Both the position numbers and the translations under genes were made by a program. This document shows, piece after piece, positions 6,432 through 30,483 of a stretch of DNA of 44,945 nt (the stretch's first letter is position 1; each line of letters opens with the position of its first letter). The DNA lies in contig CALVDI010000014.1 of NCBI GenBank assembly GCA_944326225.1, forward strand, positions 1 through 44,945, in the 5' to 3' direction. The notes under the pieces were generated by a model. It searched no databases. It was not told where the DNA came from and saw nothing but the letters and a program-made list of their open reading frames with translations. The DNA is from an uncultured Bacteroidales bacterium. Its GTDB lineage: Bacteria > Bacteroidota > Bacteroidia > Bacteroidales > UBA932.

Positions 6432-8525
6432 CTAGAAGAATCTGGCTCTGTTGTCCACAATCTTAGCCCTTTCAGTAAAGATGACGGGAAGGTTGTTAAT
6501 CTGATAGCTTTCTATCTGAGCAGCCTTGATCTTGGCATCATCCTCAGTATAGAAAGATCCTGTCTCGCGGTTGCCGACCTGAAGCACATACACTCCGATG
6601 TTGCCTGCCACAGGACCTGCTATCACACCGGGCTCGGCACCTGCCACTGCTCCTATAAACGCGGGTTCGGTAGAGTTACCGCTCATAGAGCCGAATGTTA
6701 TACCGGTCTTCGTGCTCACTGTCTGACCGAGAGTGTCGGCTATCACATTGAGGTCGGTAAGTCCGGCTATCTTGTCAGCCACTTCATTTCTGACTTTCTC
6801 AGCCCTCTTTTCATTGGCCAGACGGTAGCTGATAGAAGAAGACACTTCCTTGAGAGGAGTATGGCCCTCTTCGTGTATCTGCTTGAGAGCTACCACAAAA
6901 TATATATCGTTATTGACTGTGATGATGGGCGATACATCACCGACTTTAGTCTTGTCGTCATATATCCAGCGTATAACCTCCCTGACATCATCATATCTTG
7001 AGAGCTGACGCGCACTTTCAGCCACCCTGTTGGCAGGTATGACAGGAAGATCCTCCTCCTGTGTTATCTTCTCGAAATTCTCTATCTTGCCCTCGCTGCG
7101 GGAAGCCAGGTCATTGGCCTGAGCGTAGAAATCCTGGAATGTCTCCTTGCTGGGAAGAGCCTCCTTGGAAAGGATTGCGAGCTGAACCTTCTCCATCGGA
7201 GCTGTCCTTTCCGTAACTGTAACGATATGCAGACCGTAATCTGTCTCCATTTTGGCTACCGCACCGGGCCTCATGGCCAGAACATCCTGCATTCCGGGAA
7301 TCATGGCTGTCTGTGTCATCCAGCCTATATCTCCGGGGTTGGCAACGTTAGGATTCTGATCCAGGGAGAAACGGGATGCCAGGTCGGAGAAATCTCCTCC
7401 ATGATTCAGTTCGTTGATCAGACTGTCGGCAAGCTCACTGTCATCAAATGAAAGAAGGATATGCCGTACATAGGCCGAGTCAGACATCGTCTTGACATCA
7501 TTGACACGGGCCGCATAGAAAGTGTTGCCCTTCTGGAAAACAGGCAGTACTTCCGGATTCTCACTGAATGCGAACTCATCCACCTCCGGATACTCTGAGG
7601 CAAGCTCTCCCTGTTTGTAATAATACTCCTGGAGAGGCGTATCGGAGTTGAACGAGAGGAAAGACTTAAGGTTATCAGTAGTAGAGAACTCTGTAAAGAG
7701 GGCATTGATACCGTCCTCTGCGGCTTTTATATCCGCCTCGGAGGGAACAACCTCATAGGCTACAAACTCCACATCACGCGAAGCACTCTGACGGTAGTTG
7801 TCCTTATGGGCATTGTAATAGTCCTGTATCTCCTTGTCGGAAACCTTAATCGTAGTATCCTGCCTGAAACCGAAAGGCACCAGTACGAACTCTGCATCCG
7901 AGGATGTATTGTTCTCCTCTATCTGCCTGCGCAACTCTACAGGAGTAATGATATCACTGCCGGCCAGAATTGAAGAATACTTAATATAATACTGCTGGGA
8001 TTTCATGTTCTGCTCAAGGAAGTCCCAGTACGCCGCAAGGTTTCCGGAACCATCCGCAGATATGGCATGAATAAAATCCAACAACTTCTCTCTGCTGAAA
8101 TTACCGGAGGCATCGAGAAAAATCGGATCCTGAGCCAAAACAGGAGATATCTCCTTGCCCTGGCTGAGATCCACAAGTTCGTCCTCTCCAACGGTAAGTC
8201 CTGCCTTCTGTATCTGCGGTATCACATACCACTGCGAAATCAGGTTCTGCCATGCGGACTCATTGATGGCCTGCATTGCATCCTCCGACACTGACTGCGA
8301 ACCGGTTGTCAGGGTATAGATGTCGGTATAATAATCCACTTCTTTCTGGAACTCATTATAGCGTACCTTCTTGCCGTCTATCTTTCCGACATCGTACTTG
8401 GATGAGAAGTAGCTGAGAGTTGTCTCCAGAGTACCTGGATCTATAATAAACGATAACAGTGCGACTGCTATGAGCACTGTGATAAGAACACCGAGCTTGA
8501 CTCGAATTTTCTCTAAAACTGCCAT
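6432..8525 (-). CDS. ppiD: Peptidyl-prolyl isomerase / periplasmic folding factor (PpiD/SurA type)
   Basis: Membrane-anchored periplasmic chaperone and parvulin-type proline isomerase that helps outer membrane proteins fold. The 697 residues begin with one transmembrane segment (about 10-29, LGVLITVLIAVALLSFIIDP), then a SurA/PpiD N-terminal domain (~40-190). A parvulin domain follows at roughly 350-440 (AYVRHILLSF, FSDLASRFS, GDIGWM, YGLHIVTV). A second region resembling a degenerate parvulin (~490-600) follows. Length and order match Bacteroidota PpiD-like proteins, which are often called SurA N-terminal domain proteins. It sits 54 bases after lptC, in line with a shared role in outer membrane assembly. 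Confidence 0.9.
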   Translation of the reverse strand: MAVLEKIRVKLGVLITVLIAVALLSFIIDPGTLETTLSYFSSKYDVGKIDGKKVRYNEFQKEVDYYTDIYTLTTGSQSVSEDAMQAINESAWQNLISQWYVIPQIQKAGLTVGEDELVDLSQGKEISPVLAQDPIFLDASGNFSREKLLDFIHAISADGSGNLAAYWDFLEQNMKSQQYYIKYSSILAGSDIITPVELRRQIEENNTSSDAEFVLVPFGFRQDTTIKVSDKEIQDYYNAHKDNYRQSASRDVEFVAYEVVPSEADIKAAEDGINALFTEFSTTDNLKSFLSFNSDTPLQEYYYKQGELASEYPEVDEFAFSENPEVLPVFQKGNTFYAARVNDVKTMSDSAYVRHILLSFDDSELADSLINELNHGGDFSDLASRFSLDQNPNVANPGDIGWMTQTAMIPGMQDVLAMRPGAVAKMETDYGLHIVTVTERTAPMEKVQLAILSKEALPSKETFQDFYAQANDLASRSEGKIENFEKITQEEDLPVIPANRVAESARQLSRYDDVREVIRWIYDDKTKVGDVSPIITVNNDIYFVVALKQIHEEGHTPLKEVSSSISYRLANEKRAEKVRNEVADKIAGLTDLNVIADTLGQTVSTKTGITFGSMSGNSTEPAFIGAVAGAEPGVIAGPVAGNIGVYVLQVGNRETGSFYTEDDAKIKAAQIESYQINNLPVIFTERAKIVDNRARFF

Positions 8526-15838: not shown

Positions 15839-16131
15839 TTCCTATTGATAACCCTGTTAATATCTTGCAATAAATTTTTTTCGTCTTTCAAAAACTAAAT
15901 ATATGAAAAAGACATTCGATATTTCAAAAATATTTCAGATGTTTTTTTCAATTTTTTTTAAACAATTATCAACATCTTTTCGTCACCATAATTTATGCGT
16001 AACAAAAATATCAAGTTTTATTCATATTATTGATAATTCGGTTATTTTTTGAAAACATCATCTGACATTACAGATTTTGTCAACATATCCACAGGCATAA
16101 AACATAATCAAGAAATTTTTAAAAAACTATA
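15839..16131. other. AT-rich divergent gap between mfd and ruvB
   Basis: About 300 bases with GC near 25%, far below the flanking genes. I see no convincing gene; a 49-codon frame from about 15903 is low-complexity and unsupported. The gap holds four sequences close to a DnaA box: TATTGATAA at 15843-15851 and 16028-16036, TTATCAACA at 15966-15974 and ATATCCACA at 16085-16093. None is an exact TTATCCACA. It must contain the mfd promoter, but I cannot place it. Confidence 0.6.
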
Positions 16132-16139
16132 TATATTTG
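16132..16139 (+). promoter_or_regulatory. -7 box of the ruvB operon
   Basis: TATATTTG matches TAnnTTTG exactly, but no TTG lies 19-21 bases upstream. A transcript from it would start near 16146, inside the first in-frame ATG (16144), which supports the ATG at 16159 as the real ruvB start. Confidence 0.45.
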
Positions 16140-16158
16140 TATTATGTTTGAAAGCGGT

Positions 16159-27171: not shown

Positions 27172-27666
27172 ATGATAAGATTTGAAGTCATAGACGCGAC
27201 CTTCAATTTGCGCCACAAAAATGCAATTAAAAATTGGATTAAGGAAATCATTTTGAGCAAAAATCGCAGAGTAGGGGATATTAACTATATTTTCTCAAAC
27301 GATGAATATGTCCTCGATGTCAACCGTAAGTATCTGGGACACGATTACTATACTGACATAATAACGTTCGATACTTCTGAGTATGAAGAGCAAATTGCAG
27401 ATAACCAGGTAGATAGAATCTCTGCCGATATCATAATCAGTCTGGATACGGTAGCGGCGAATGCAGTCACTTATGGTGCGGATTTTCCGCTGGAGCTTTA
27501 CCGCGTCATAATACACGGTATCCTGCATCTGATCGGGTACGACGATTTGAACGAGGCGGATTCCTGCAGGATGCGCAAGGCCGAGGATGAGGCGCTGGCT
27601 CTTCTTCCTAAGTTTGGTATCCTCGGCGATCAGGCTTATATTTGCCGCGCAAAATCCCAATGTTAA
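27172..27666 (+). CDS. ybeY: Endoribonuclease YbeY (rRNA maturation factor)
   Basis: Metal-dependent RNase for 16S rRNA 3'-end maturation and ribosome quality control. The 164 residues hold the zinc motif HGILHLIGYDD (HxxxHxxGyD) and the upstream family segments NRKYLGHDYYTDIITFDT and DIIISLDTVAANA. Length is usual. The stop codon TAA (27664-27666) overlaps the mnmG ATG by one base, so the two are co-translated. No strong promoter is visible in the 52-base gap shared with divergent mdh. Confidence 0.95.
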   Translation: MIRFEVIDATFNLRHKNAIKNWIKEIILSKNRRVGDINYIFSNDEYVLDVNRKYLGHDYYTDIITFDTSEYEEQIADNQVDRISADIIISLDTVAANAVTYGADFPLELYRVIIHGILHLIGYDDLNEADSCRMRKAEDEALALLPKFGILGDQAYICRAKSQC

Positions 27667-29639
27667 TGGAATCCAGGTACGATGTCATAGTAATAGGGGC
27701 CGGTCATGCCGGATGCGAGGCCGCGTCGGCAGCAGCGAGGCTGGGTGTCAAAGTGCTTCTTATCACGATGGATATGAACAAAATCGCCCAGATGTCCTGT
27801 AATCCTTCCATTGGTGGTATCGCTAAGGGTCAGATAATCAGAGAGATAGATGCTTTGGGAGGTTCCTCGGGGATAGTCACGGACGCTTCTACGCTTCAGT
27901 TTCGGATGCTAAACCGCTCCAAGGGCCCTGCTATGTGGAGTCCCAGAGCCCAGTGTGACCGTATGGCCTTTTCCATGAACTGGCGCTGGATACTGGAGAA
28001 TACGCCCAATCTCGTTTTCTGGCAGGATACAGTTACACATTTCAATTTTTCATCCTCCGGGGATATAGATTCTCTCGAGACATCGCTGGGGGGGCATTTT
28101 TCAGCATCGTATTATATCCTGACAGCGGGTACTTTTCTCAATGGCAGGATCTTCGTCGGTGACAGGACTACCGAGGGGGGTAGGGTAGCGGAACCGTCAT
28201 CGTATTTCGTTTCCCTTCAGCTGTGCGACCGGGGTATAGCAACCGCCAGGATGAAGACAGGTACGCCTCCCCGTGTGGATATCCGCTCTGTAAATGCTTC
28301 CGAGTTGATCCTGCAGCAGGGAGATGAGATACCGGAAAAATTCTCATTCCTGCCCTATCTTTCCTCTGCGCAGCGTTCGGACATTCCCCAAATGGATTGC
28401 TATATCGCCCATACCAATGCGACTGTGCATGATATCCTGCGGTCGGCTTTTGATAAGTCGCCCCTGTTCTCCGGCAAGATAACCGGTATCGGGCCGCGCT
28501 ACTGTCCGAGTATCGAGGACAAGTTGCGGACATTCGCTGATAAGGACTCACATCAGATATTCCTGGAGCCCGAAGGACGCAATTCGACTGAGTATTATCT
28601 GCAGGGCTTCTCTTCATCGCTCCCTTTTGAGACTCAGATAAACGCTTTGGTGCATGTGCCTGGTTTTGAGCACGTTCATTTGTTGCGTCCTGCTTATGCC
28701 ATTGAATACGACTATTTTGATCCTGTGCAGTTAGACCACACACTACGTTCCCGCGTAGTGTCCAATCTTTTCCTCGCAGGTCAGGTCAACGGTACGACCG
28801 GTTATGAAGAGGCCGGCGCACAAGGTATCATAGCCGGCATCAATGCTGCGCTCCGTGTTAAGACAGGCCAGGAGTTTACTTTGTCGCGTGATACTTCCTA
28901 CATCGGAGTCCTCATAGACGATTTGGTGACTAAAGGTGTGGATGAGCCTTACAGGATGTTTACATCCCGTGCCGAATATCGGATCCTCTTGCGTCAGGAC
29001 AACACTGATGAGCGGCTGACGCCACTCTCACATCAGATAGGCTTGGCTTCCGATTACAGGATGCGGGTTCTGGAGTTAAAGAAGAAGATTAAGGCACGGA
29101 TAAATTCTGCTCTTTCATCAACGCGGCCTACACTCGATGATCTCAACACCTATCTAGGAACAATCGGATCGTCTTCGCTTTCTTCTACTAGAACACTAGT
29201 TGATTTAATATCGCGTCCTGGTGTAACGATAAAAGATTTGTACCAATTTGTTCCACGTGGAACAAAGTCGTCTATCACGAAGCACTCTTATGTATCTACA
29301 CAGGAAATATCATCAAGTTTACCTGCCGTTCTTCCTGATTATTTCAAAATACTTTTTTCTGACAAATATTGCCTATTGAGTGAGTCGCTTAATTCGTGTG
29401 AGATTGAATTAAAGTACCGAGGTTATATTGATCGTGAGATCCAGCAGGCGCAAAAACTCAAGCGGCTGGAGAACCTCTCTATTCCTGATGAGTTTGATTA
29501 TGCGGCTTTGGAGTCATTGTCAATAGAAGCCCGAATGAAGCTGGCAAAGCACAGGCCACGCAATATCGCCGAGGCCTCCCGAATACCTGGTGTCTCGCCA
29601 TCTGATATATCGGTTCTGCTGATTTACTTCGGTCGTTGA
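27666..29639 (+). CDS. mnmG: tRNA uridine-5-carboxymethylaminomethyl modification enzyme MnmG (GidA)
   Basis: With MnmE, builds the cmnm5 group on wobble uridine of several tRNAs, using FAD. From the ATG at 27666 (MESRYDVIVIGAGHAGCEAA) the protein has 657 residues; an upstream in-frame ATG at 27642 lies within ybeY and is not needed. FAD motif GAGHAG (11-16), CNPSIGGIAKG, GTFLNGRIF, RMKTGTPPR, the GQVNGTTGYEEA segment and the C-terminal GidA-associated domain (RPRNIAEASRIPGVSPSDIS) are present. Its 3' part codes VPRGT with a perfect 16-bp parS-like palindrome. A second copy follows the stop. Confidence 0.96.
   Translation: MESRYDVIVIGAGHAGCEAASAAARLGVKVLLITMDMNKIAQMSCNPSIGGIAKGQIIREIDALGGSSGIVTDASTLQFRMLNRSKGPAMWSPRAQCDRMAFSMNWRWILENTPNLVFWQDTVTHFNFSSSGDIDSLETSLGGHFSASYYILTAGTFLNGRIFVGDRTTEGGRVAEPSSYFVSLQLCDRGIATARMKTGTPPRVDIRSVNASELILQQGDEIPEKFSFLPYLSSAQRSDIPQMDCYIAHTNATVHDILRSAFDKSPLFSGKITGIGPRYCPSIEDKLRTFADKDSHQIFLEPEGRNSTEYYLQGFSSSLPFETQINALVHVPGFEHVHLLRPAYAIEYDYFDPVQLDHTLRSRVVSNLFLAGQVNGTTGYEEAGAQGIIAGINAALRVKTGQEFTLSRDTSYIGVLIDDLVTKGVDEPYRMFTSRAEYRILLRQDNTDERLTPLSHQIGLASDYRMRVLELKKKIKARINSALSSTRPTLDDLNTYLGTIGSSSLSSTRTLVDLISRPGVTIKDLYQFVPRGTKSSITKHSYVSTQEISSSLPAVLPDYFKILFSDKYCLLSESLNSCEIELKYRGYIDREIQQAQKLKRLENLSIPDEFDYAALESLSIEARMKLAKHRPRNIAEASRIPGVSPSDISVLLIYFGR
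29249..29264. promoter_or_regulatory. parS: parS-like centromere site, copy 1 (inside mnmG)
   Basis: TGTTCCACGTGGAACA is a perfect 16-bp palindrome and differs only symmetrically from the parS consensus TGTTTCACGTGAAACA bound by ParB. Flanking bases extend the symmetry to 20 bp (29247-29266). It lies in the mnmG reading frame, where it codes for part of FVPRGT. Confidence 0.85.
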
Positions 29640-29645
29640 ATGTGT

Positions 29646-29661
29646 TGTTCCACGTGGAACA
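29646..29661. promoter_or_regulatory. parS: parS-like centromere site, copy 2 (convergent gap)
   Basis: The identical 16-bp TGTTCCACGTGGAACA lies 397 bases after copy 1. It fits between the mnmG stop (29637-29639) and the last base of the convergent acetyltransferase gene, whose stop codon begins at the next base (29662). Two identical sites this close argue against chance. Confidence 0.87.
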
Positions 29662-30483
29662 TTATTCCATTGTGAATGTAAATAGCGGGTGCTTTCCTGA
29701 AAAGAGATCCAGCCTTGTCTTACATAGCATATGCGCTTCTTTTTCATTTCCTGCTGGAGTAGTGATAATAGCAGTGCTGGAGTTCGGATATATGCCTTTA
29801 ATCCAGTAGGGGGTTAGAGAAGAACCGCTGTCCGTGACTTCTCCGTGCTCTTCACAGATAATGGTTCCGTTGTTCTCTGGATCAGGATAGCAGATTGCAT
29901 AACCTTCTCCATAGTTTATTGCAAATGCTTTGCCGTTGCAGTATTCGGTATATGAGAGCTGGTATCCGCACATATTCCGGCTTGATTCAAACAGCAGGCC
30001 GTCGCGGCACTGTCTGGCTCTGGCCGTATATAGTGTCTGGTCGGAAAGGGGCTCCAGAATGATTTCCGGGGGAATTAATGGCAGGGTTACTCTTTTGACA
30101 CTGCGATATAGAGTCGTATCATAGCACTGTTGCCTATAGTACTCAAATAAGGAATGTGAGGCCGGCCTAAGTATCATAAAATCCAGATCTTTGTCCAACA
30201 ACTGCTCCTCTGCATGTCTCAGCAAGGACACTGCGTGTCTATGTCCGCGATGTTCAGGGTGAGTGCAGACACCGTAAACATATCCTCCTCTGTGTCCTGC
30301 ATATTTGACAGGAAATATGCTCAAGGCAGAGACGATGCCAGCCTCTTTCTCCATCACGTATGTCCTGGTCAGTCCGTATCCCTTCTCAAAAAACAGGTCT
30401 AGAAATGCCCTGTCTGCATCAAAACACTTTCTCCAAAGCGTCCTTAGCTCCGGAACATCATCATCGTTGGAAAGCCTGAACAT
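29662..30483 (-). CDS. GNAT-family N-acetyltransferase (Eis-like architecture)
   Basis: 273 residues. The N-terminal half is a GNAT domain: FRLSNDDDVPELRTLWRKCF, then ALSIFPVKYAGHRGGYVYGV and the acetyl-CoA loop VCTHPEHRGHRHAVSLL, where RGHRHA replaces the commoner RGxGxG. The C-terminal half (from about residue 130) has no clear motif and may be a second, sterol-carrier-like domain as in Eis-type enzymes. The substrate is unknown. The ATG overlaps the stop of the acyl-CoA synthetase gene by one base (TAATG), so the two are probably one transcript. The 3' end abuts parS copy 2. Confidence 0.8.
   Translation of the reverse strand: MFRLSNDDDVPELRTLWRKCFDADRAFLDLFFEKGYGLTRTYVMEKEAGIVSALSIFPVKYAGHRGGYVYGVCTHPEHRGHRHAVSLLRHAEEQLLDKDLDFMILRPASHSLFEYYRQQCYDTTLYRSVKRVTLPLIPPEIILEPLSDQTLYTARARQCRDGLLFESSRNMCGYQLSYTEYCNGKAFAINYGEGYAICYPDPENNGTIICEEHGEVTDSGSSLTPYWIKGIYPNSSTAIITTPAGNEKEAHMLCKTRLDLFSGKHPLFTFTME

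Follow-up and report, generated by a model that had tools for sequence, protein, structure and literature searches.

Why should a perfect 16-bp palindrome occur twice, once written into the reading frame of a tRNA modification gene and once just past its stop codon, in the genome of an uncultured Bacteroidales bacterium (GTDB lineage UBA932)? The stretch analysed here (44,945 nucleotides, hereafter the window) carries TGTTCCACGTGGAACA in two exact copies with starts 397 bp apart (Table 1), as had been noticed from the sequence alone. The original prediction took them for binding sites of the chromosome-segregation protein ParB. No third copy is found in the window at up to 3 mismatches, with 0.11 expected by shuffling, and two copies arise at this tolerance in 0 of 100 shuffles of the window. 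The whole draft genome (1,994,415 bp, 86 contigs, 83% complete) contains no further copy at up to 2 mismatches, the control pattern also giving 0. The first base of copy 1 completes a Phe codon, after which the mnmG frame reads V-P-R-G-T, in agreement with the FVPRGT read originally. Copy 2 was said to fill exactly the space between mnmG and the convergent GNAT gene. This needs correction, as the intergenic gap, from the mnmG stop ending at 29639 to the GNAT stop codon beginning at 29662, is 22 bp long and copy 2 forms its last 16 bp. The TTG start of mnmG was called mechanically, and the true start may lie a few codons further in. To note, an RNA family search of the window returns a tRNA-Ala (GGC) gene at 1242-1316 on the minus strand, and no other RNA family.

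Table 1. Features of the window around the two palindromes and the predicted origin
Feature	Position	Strand	Remarks
parS copy 1, TGTTCCACGTGGAACA	29249..29264	.	inside mnmG, frame (F)V-P-R-G-T, MnmG residues 537-541
parS copy 2, TGTTCCACGTGGAACA	29646..29661	.	6 bp past mnmG stop, touching stop codon of convergent GNAT gene
mnmG (gidA), tRNA uridine modification enzyme	27642..29639	+	Pfam GIDA 482.9 bits; solved relatives e.g. 3cp8
GNAT-family acetyltransferase gene, convergent to mnmG	29662..30483	-	Pfam Acetyltransf_9, 52.3 bits
Predicted oriC (inference)	15839..16143	.	305-bp, 78% AT gap between divergent mfd and ruvB, ~13 kb from parS

The palindrome fits the parS consensus and is identical to a published parS. 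The same 16-mer constitutes parS2 and parS3 of Pseudomonas aeruginosa, at the top of that species' ParB binding hierarchy in vitro (PMC4368675); it is bound in vivo in P. aeruginosa (PMC5098823) and is tabulated for P. putida (PMC7022226). The description as a symmetric variant of a known ParB site was therefore right about the relation and too modest about its degree, the 16-mer itself being a published site. The two palindromes very probably represent the chromosomal centromere (parS) of the window's bacterium, located at mnmG beside the origin, and they are almost certainly docking sites of ParB. The sequence evidence for this comprises, besides the identity with parS, the clustering of sites at mnmG, the location of mnmG at or near the skew-defined origin of relatives, a ParB of the parS type in the family, a constraint at the level of codons and, in one clade, the disappearance of the sites together with ParB.

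The association with mnmG is conserved across the family. TGTTNCACGTGNAACA is present exactly in 72 of the 149 family genomes sampled, the window's own counted. Sites at mnmG were scored at up to 2 mismatches to TGTTYCACGTGRAACA in 81 loci, namely that of the window and those of 80 among 126 family genomes in which MnmG was matched, picked down the match list blind to the sites and with whole genes favoured. A site lies in mnmG or within 350 bp past it in 76 of the 81 loci. It is inside the gene in 68, the same frame being used by 73/73 internal sites, and within 350 bp past the gene in 58, while none of the 81 has a site within 200 bp before mnmG. The 78 kb of family flank located more than 600 bp before or more than 3.5 kb after mnmG holds 0 sites. 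The 397-bp spacing of the two copies is seen again in G062, G087 and G141. Among the five loci lacking a site, G009 has sites 0.5-1.3 kb downstream of mnmG, and G051, G102, G113 and G124 are without ParB. MnmG itself ranges from ~616 to 774 residues across family loci L132-L211, varying by the linker that follows the site.

The genome-wide scan proposed with the original prediction finds the sites clustered rather than scattered. Besides the two copies of the window's own draft, 20 relatives (completeness 80-100%, 16 of them at least 90%) searched whole at up to 2 mismatches contain 40 sites, 38 of which are no further than ~3.5 kb from mnmG; the other two (G002:C11 and G004:C5) are non-palindromic. 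Sites are found in 19 of these genomes, one to three in each, the backward control pattern giving 13 matches. G051, the sole site-less genome, is also without ParB. Copies are thus few and clustered, as is typical of parS, in the own draft and in the relatives searched whole.

Is this cluster close to the replication origin? Strand-corrected third-codon-position skew, measured in twenty 20-kb samples per genome, was followed in the single-contig relatives G003, G010 and G077. In G003 the switch from negative to positive skew falls at 670-677 kb, between mfd and frdA, with mnmG at 686-688 kb. In G077 the switch falls at 1448-1500 kb and mnmG at 1508-1510 kb, and in G010 the switch is within ~40 kb of position 1, with mnmG at 0.2-2.3 kb and a best fit 20-40 kb from mnmG. 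When grid points are compared as origins, the one at mnmG comes first of 78 in G003, tied first of 84 in G077 and third of 93 in G010. Re-ordering of the samples on a coarser grid yields an equally good two-arm fit in 0, 0 and 1 of 200 cases, a procedure that probes the two-armed skew and not the position of the switch. The sites are therefore not far from the skew-defined origin, mnmG being at or near the switch in all three relatives. In the window itself, the cumulative GC skew reaches its minimum 13 kb away, at 16,000, inside the mfd-ruvB gap, single-gene skews being noisy. No other 250-bp segment of the window is as rich in AT as one in this gap, which also has 2 DnaA-like boxes (0.11 expected); the matching gap of G010 has one (0.2 expected). 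Together, these features make the mfd-ruvB gap the likely oriC of the window. The third-position AT skew also flips at this gap, but it merely follows gene strand and hence was not used to place the origin. The gene order mfd, ruvB, frdAB, hflX, mdh, ybeY, mnmG, ruvA, sufSE is shared wherever sampled.

The original prediction had remarked that no parB was in sight. In the three single-contig relatives parB is ~480-670 kb from mnmG, which places it well out of sight in the window. TIGR00180 matches 138 of the 149 family genomes, 137 of them above the cut-off, and 10/10 same-genus relatives above it, while the window's own draft, 83% complete, has neither a TIGR00180 nor a PF02195 match. In the close relative G087, ParB is encoded at C31:11942-12439. 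Contig C4 of the window's own draft has an end at the equivalent of position 8305 of G087 C31, and the next 8.7 kb, including ParB, are uncovered by any own-draft match listed, with 40 of 58 candidate stretches scored. Since the contig ends before the ParB region and the following stretch is uncovered, parB of this species is most likely unassembled and located in an assembly gap; its loss in the window's own species is, on the same grounds, unlikely.

The G087 ParB aligns with 6t1f, which we take to be the Caulobacter ParB. The Caulobacter residues R173 and G201 are among those separating parS from NBS recognition (PMC7383237), and R and G also occupy the equivalent positions in 85 of the ParBs compared from 86 family genomes, the remaining one being cut short. 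The ParBs of relatives thus carry parS-type recognition residues. Sites without a detected ParB are found in G158 (86% complete), G006, G086, G105 and G142, all drafts, and G085 (59% complete) has neither a site nor a ParB match. Outside the family, 50 of 80 named genomes were examined for ParB; two gave no match (L055 and L086), both being drafts with sites.

The copy inside mnmG allows the constraint on DNA to be separated from that on protein. VPRGT occurs in the linker of 54 of the 81 family MnmGs, and a close variant in 12. Within the motif, the codons that spell the palindrome far exceed the numbers expected from each gene's codon use: GTT in 66/66 (21.4 expected), CCA in 57/64 (12.5), CGT in 51/65 (11.8), GGA in 56/56 (18.1) and ACA in 53/65 (19.4). 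All five are used jointly in 29 of the 54 VPRGT genes, against 0.07 expected. The excess persists in 11 representatives less than 65% identical, with GTT, CCA, CGT, GGA and ACA in 11/11, 9/10, 9/11, 10/10 and 10/11 where 3.8, 2.0, 2.0, 3.2 and 3.4 are expected. The alignment of MnmG homologues, proposed earlier as a check, hence bears out a conservation of the VPRGT codons beyond protein need.

The protein context agrees with this. The motif begins where similarity to the solved MnmG 3cp8 ends (aligned to residue 535, resuming at 584), and residues 526-580 contain no invariant or nearly invariant position among 27 MnmGs, in an alignment from which five proteins were left out. In an AlphaFold model (mean pLDDT 84), the motif adjoins a linker of pLDDT below 50 at 547-576. 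In MnmGs outside the family, the motif is not seen at the linker position. Some family members carry several blocks: VPRGT occurs three times in G025 (L174), at codons 227, 525 and 544, and twice, again at different codon positions, in G123 (L185), while G043 (L173) has three variants. In L174, L173 and L185 the in-frame parS-like copies are located at codons ~227-233, 525 and 544-560. These comparisons indicate that selection preserves the in-gene copy as DNA; the centromere would in this way dictate five residues of MnmG.

A natural control is provided by genus g14. Among its 26 genomes, 13 have ParB over the cut-off and 13 are without, G051 having a sub-threshold hit only. The MnmG C-terminus is readable in 9 ParB-positive and 12 ParB-negative genomes: the palindrome and VPRGT are kept in 9/9 of the former and neither is present in 11/12 of the latter. 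Genome-wide, a site within 1 mismatch exists in 9/13 ParB-positive and 1/13 ParB-negative genomes; for the ParB-positive G066, G150, G160 and G161, which have none, no MnmG C-terminus was found. In an MnmG tree that includes a G162 row without C-terminus and excludes G033 as too short, 11 of the 12 ParB-negative rows form one clade (support 100/99) within ParB-positive lineages. G158 (ParB-negative, 86% complete) keeps its sites and groups with ParB-positive genomes. The joint loss of ParB, palindrome and VPRGT is essentially one evolutionary event, which makes it a good check of mechanism and a single case. Several genomes of the ParB-less clade, for example G051, G124 and G113, are more than 90% complete and have no parS at mnmG.

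Beyond the family, 79 mnmG loci of named Bacteroidota were compared, these being the nearest 80 of at least 584, minus L052 (the same part as G045:C4). Within this sample, mnmG is accompanied by a site in 73 of the 79 loci. There is one no more than 350 bp past the stop in 64 loci, one no more than 200 bp ahead of the match start in 40, and one inside the gene in 2. The position of copy 2 is therefore common and that of copy 1 mainly a family feature. As judged from these loci, mnmG beside the replication origin appears to be an old parS location in Bacteroidota, with a widespread copy just past the stop. The flanks of the named loci, 529 kb in all, contain a further 20 sites at a distance from mnmG, some of them probably additional parS. 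In the genomes of Chryseobacterium, Aquirufa and Aequorivita, every site among the matches listed is within ~5 kb of mnmG, as are the best 2 of 5 sites in Lentiprolixibacter; the control pattern gave 11 matches over the 12 genomes searched. Six of the 79 loci (L061, L082, L094, L109, L122 and L128) have no site at mnmG, some Bacteroidota with ParB being without one there. L082 has sites 3.5-4.9 kb downstream of mnmG, L122 has them 1.4-2.0 kb upstream, and in the L128 genome they are located elsewhere. None was found within 2 mismatches of the 16-mer in the genomes of L061, L094 and L109 (G170, G195 and G205), by a search in which certain TTTCACGTGAAA-type variants, that of L063 for one, escape notice. 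Many flavobacteria have a parS-like palindrome that runs into the start of mnmG or stands immediately before it (L084, L099, L118, L126 and L130, near 6000). One of the 80 nearest loci, L072, comes from a contig with the label Limnohabitans; its mnmG resembles those of Bacteroidota and is preceded at short distance by four parS-like sites, so that this is probably a mislabelled draft.

The centre of the site drifts within the family. Variation in family sites falls on positions 1 and 16 and also on 7 and 10, the latter two setting them apart from the sites of named loci. At positions 7/10, the 73 internal family sites show 21 changes and the 61 downstream ones 22; for named loci the counts are 3 among 76 sites and 0 among 52. 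Position 2 is G in all 134 family sites. Where a genome has two copies (49 pairs), both are canonical in 27, both drifted in 15 and mixed in 7; this agreement gives a Fisher p of 1e-6, uncorrected for kinship. In the internal copy the drifting positions are synonymous. Since the non-coding copy drifts likewise, protein constraint is not the reason. G201 cannot specifically contact the drifting base (PMC7383237; its mapping to position 7 is ours), which fits a tolerance of central changes. As a settled explanation, such tolerance is opposed by the weaker binding of CACGAG sites by P. aeruginosa ParB, whose authors hold the CACGTG core to be important (PMC4368675). A single ParB residue does not account for the drift either: the equivalent of Caulobacter 172 is N in 7 ParBs, several of them with drifted sites, but drift also occurs with K. 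An apparent asymmetry between half-sites (42 sites drifted in one half, 1 in both) is not claimed, because the search was limited to two mismatches.

Could the palindromes serve something other than a centromere? The in-gene copy might be conserved because MnmG needs V-P-R-G-T, its likeness to parS being a by-product, and the presence of the motif or a close variant in 66 of 81 family linkers is what such a need would give. A need for five residues leaves synonymous codons free, though, whereas here their choice is nearly fixed. The motif is, moreover, absent from this place in MnmGs outside the family, stands in a segment (526-580) devoid of near-invariant residues, is repeated at other codons in G025 (three times), G123 (twice) and, as variants, G043, and is dropped in the ParB-less clade; the non-coding copy has the same letters and the same drift. 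We regard this explanation as highly improbable. Closer still to negligible is the idea that copy 2 is a bidirectional terminator and copy 1 a chance occurrence. Its appeal lies in the location of copy 2 between two convergent stop codons, but a pattern search for an intrinsic terminator (a GC-rich hairpin followed by a T run) found none in 28900-30200, where shuffles give 1.1, neither the sites inside mnmG nor the upstream ones that 40 of the 79 named loci possess coincide with gene ends, and the conserved letters match parS.

In most loci the neighbour in common is mnmG, which would also suit an operator, in which a different dimeric regulator recognising CACGTG-type palindromes controls mnmG or its neighbours. 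Family sites, though, lie inside or after the gene, none of 81 loci having one within the 200 bp before it, and their low number (0-3 per genome), location at the origin and joint loss with ParB all argue against such a role, which is scarcely plausible. A further alternative accepts the sites as parS and supposes that ParB mainly regulates mnmG instead of segregating the chromosome. ParB can affect transcription in some bacteria, and both copies touch mnmG. Against this, the 20 relatives searched whole contain no other site cluster, and the one at mnmG is at or near the origin, so that mnmG regulation as the main role is very unlikely.

By analogy with established ParABS biology, the centromere reading suggests the following course of events. 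A ParB dimer would read each 16-mer through its helix-turn-helix, load there as a CTP-dependent clamp and then spread across the adjoining origin region; ParA, together with the condensin of these bacteria, whichever that may be, would separate the two newly replicated origins. The second copy would have been gained in the family within the poorly conserved MnmG linker, in the frame V-P-R-G-T or a close variant. In a broader and tentative reading, which we consider possible but slightly more apt to fail than to hold, mnmG would be the standing home of the centromere in Bacteroidota; in the family the centromere would be written in frame, dictating residues in up to three VPRGT blocks per protein, and ParB and parS would drift as a unit, the changes at positions 7/10, which scarcely vary in the rest of the phylum, in both copies of one genome representing natural intermediates in ParB recognition.

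Chromosomal parS is a known kind of object. What is new to us is the tie to mnmG in many Bacteroidota, a copy in frame by which enzyme residues are dictated, the joint loss with ParB and the central drift. Among the open-access papers searched we found none on parS at mnmG/gidA in Bacteroidota; the main survey (Livny et al. 2007), which stood outside this search, could report such sites. A review of ParABS (PMC7333895) leaves open what keeps parS sites together at one place, a question on which an mnmG-anchored parS bears. The dnaA gene is no safe guide to the origin in Bacteroidota drafts, and the condensins of the phylum are also unclear (PMC10197239); a sequence-defined centromere at a marker gene offers an origin-proximal anchor for such drafts and, for studies of ParB in the phylum, an immediate target. 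The locus also illustrates clearly how a function of the DNA overrides the sequence of a protein, the clade that lost ParB serving as a natural control. The central-base drift of the family provides a series for the study of how ParB recognition evolves.

Chromosomal parS sites within coding genes are known, as in Bacillus subtilis spo0J, which likewise has a ParB site within a reading frame. Here, by comparison, one MnmG linker and one frame are used in most of the family, and the site is gone with ParB in one clade. The P. aeruginosa ParABS system shares the identical 16-mer and has its principal sites near the origin (PMC4368675, PMC5098823). That species has ten putative sites and parAB at ~7 kb from the origin (PMC4368675), whereas the window's family has 0-3 sites per genome, nearly all at mnmG, and parB hundreds of kb away. 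The parS clusters of the OMM12 gut consortium, which includes Bacteroides caecimuris and Muribaculum intestinale, were likewise obtained by consensus search and cluster at the skew-defined origin (PMC10197239); the parts of that study available to us give no gene-level place, mnmG anchoring, coding constraint or central drift. Finally, Noc and its binding site NBS offer a parallel, as Noc and ParB belong to the same protein superfamily and NBS differs from parS at the base that drifts in the family (base 6 in that paper, mapped here to position 7/10; PMC7383237). Unlike the NBS system, the family ParBs retain the parS-type R173 and G201, and position 2 is G in 134/134 family sites.
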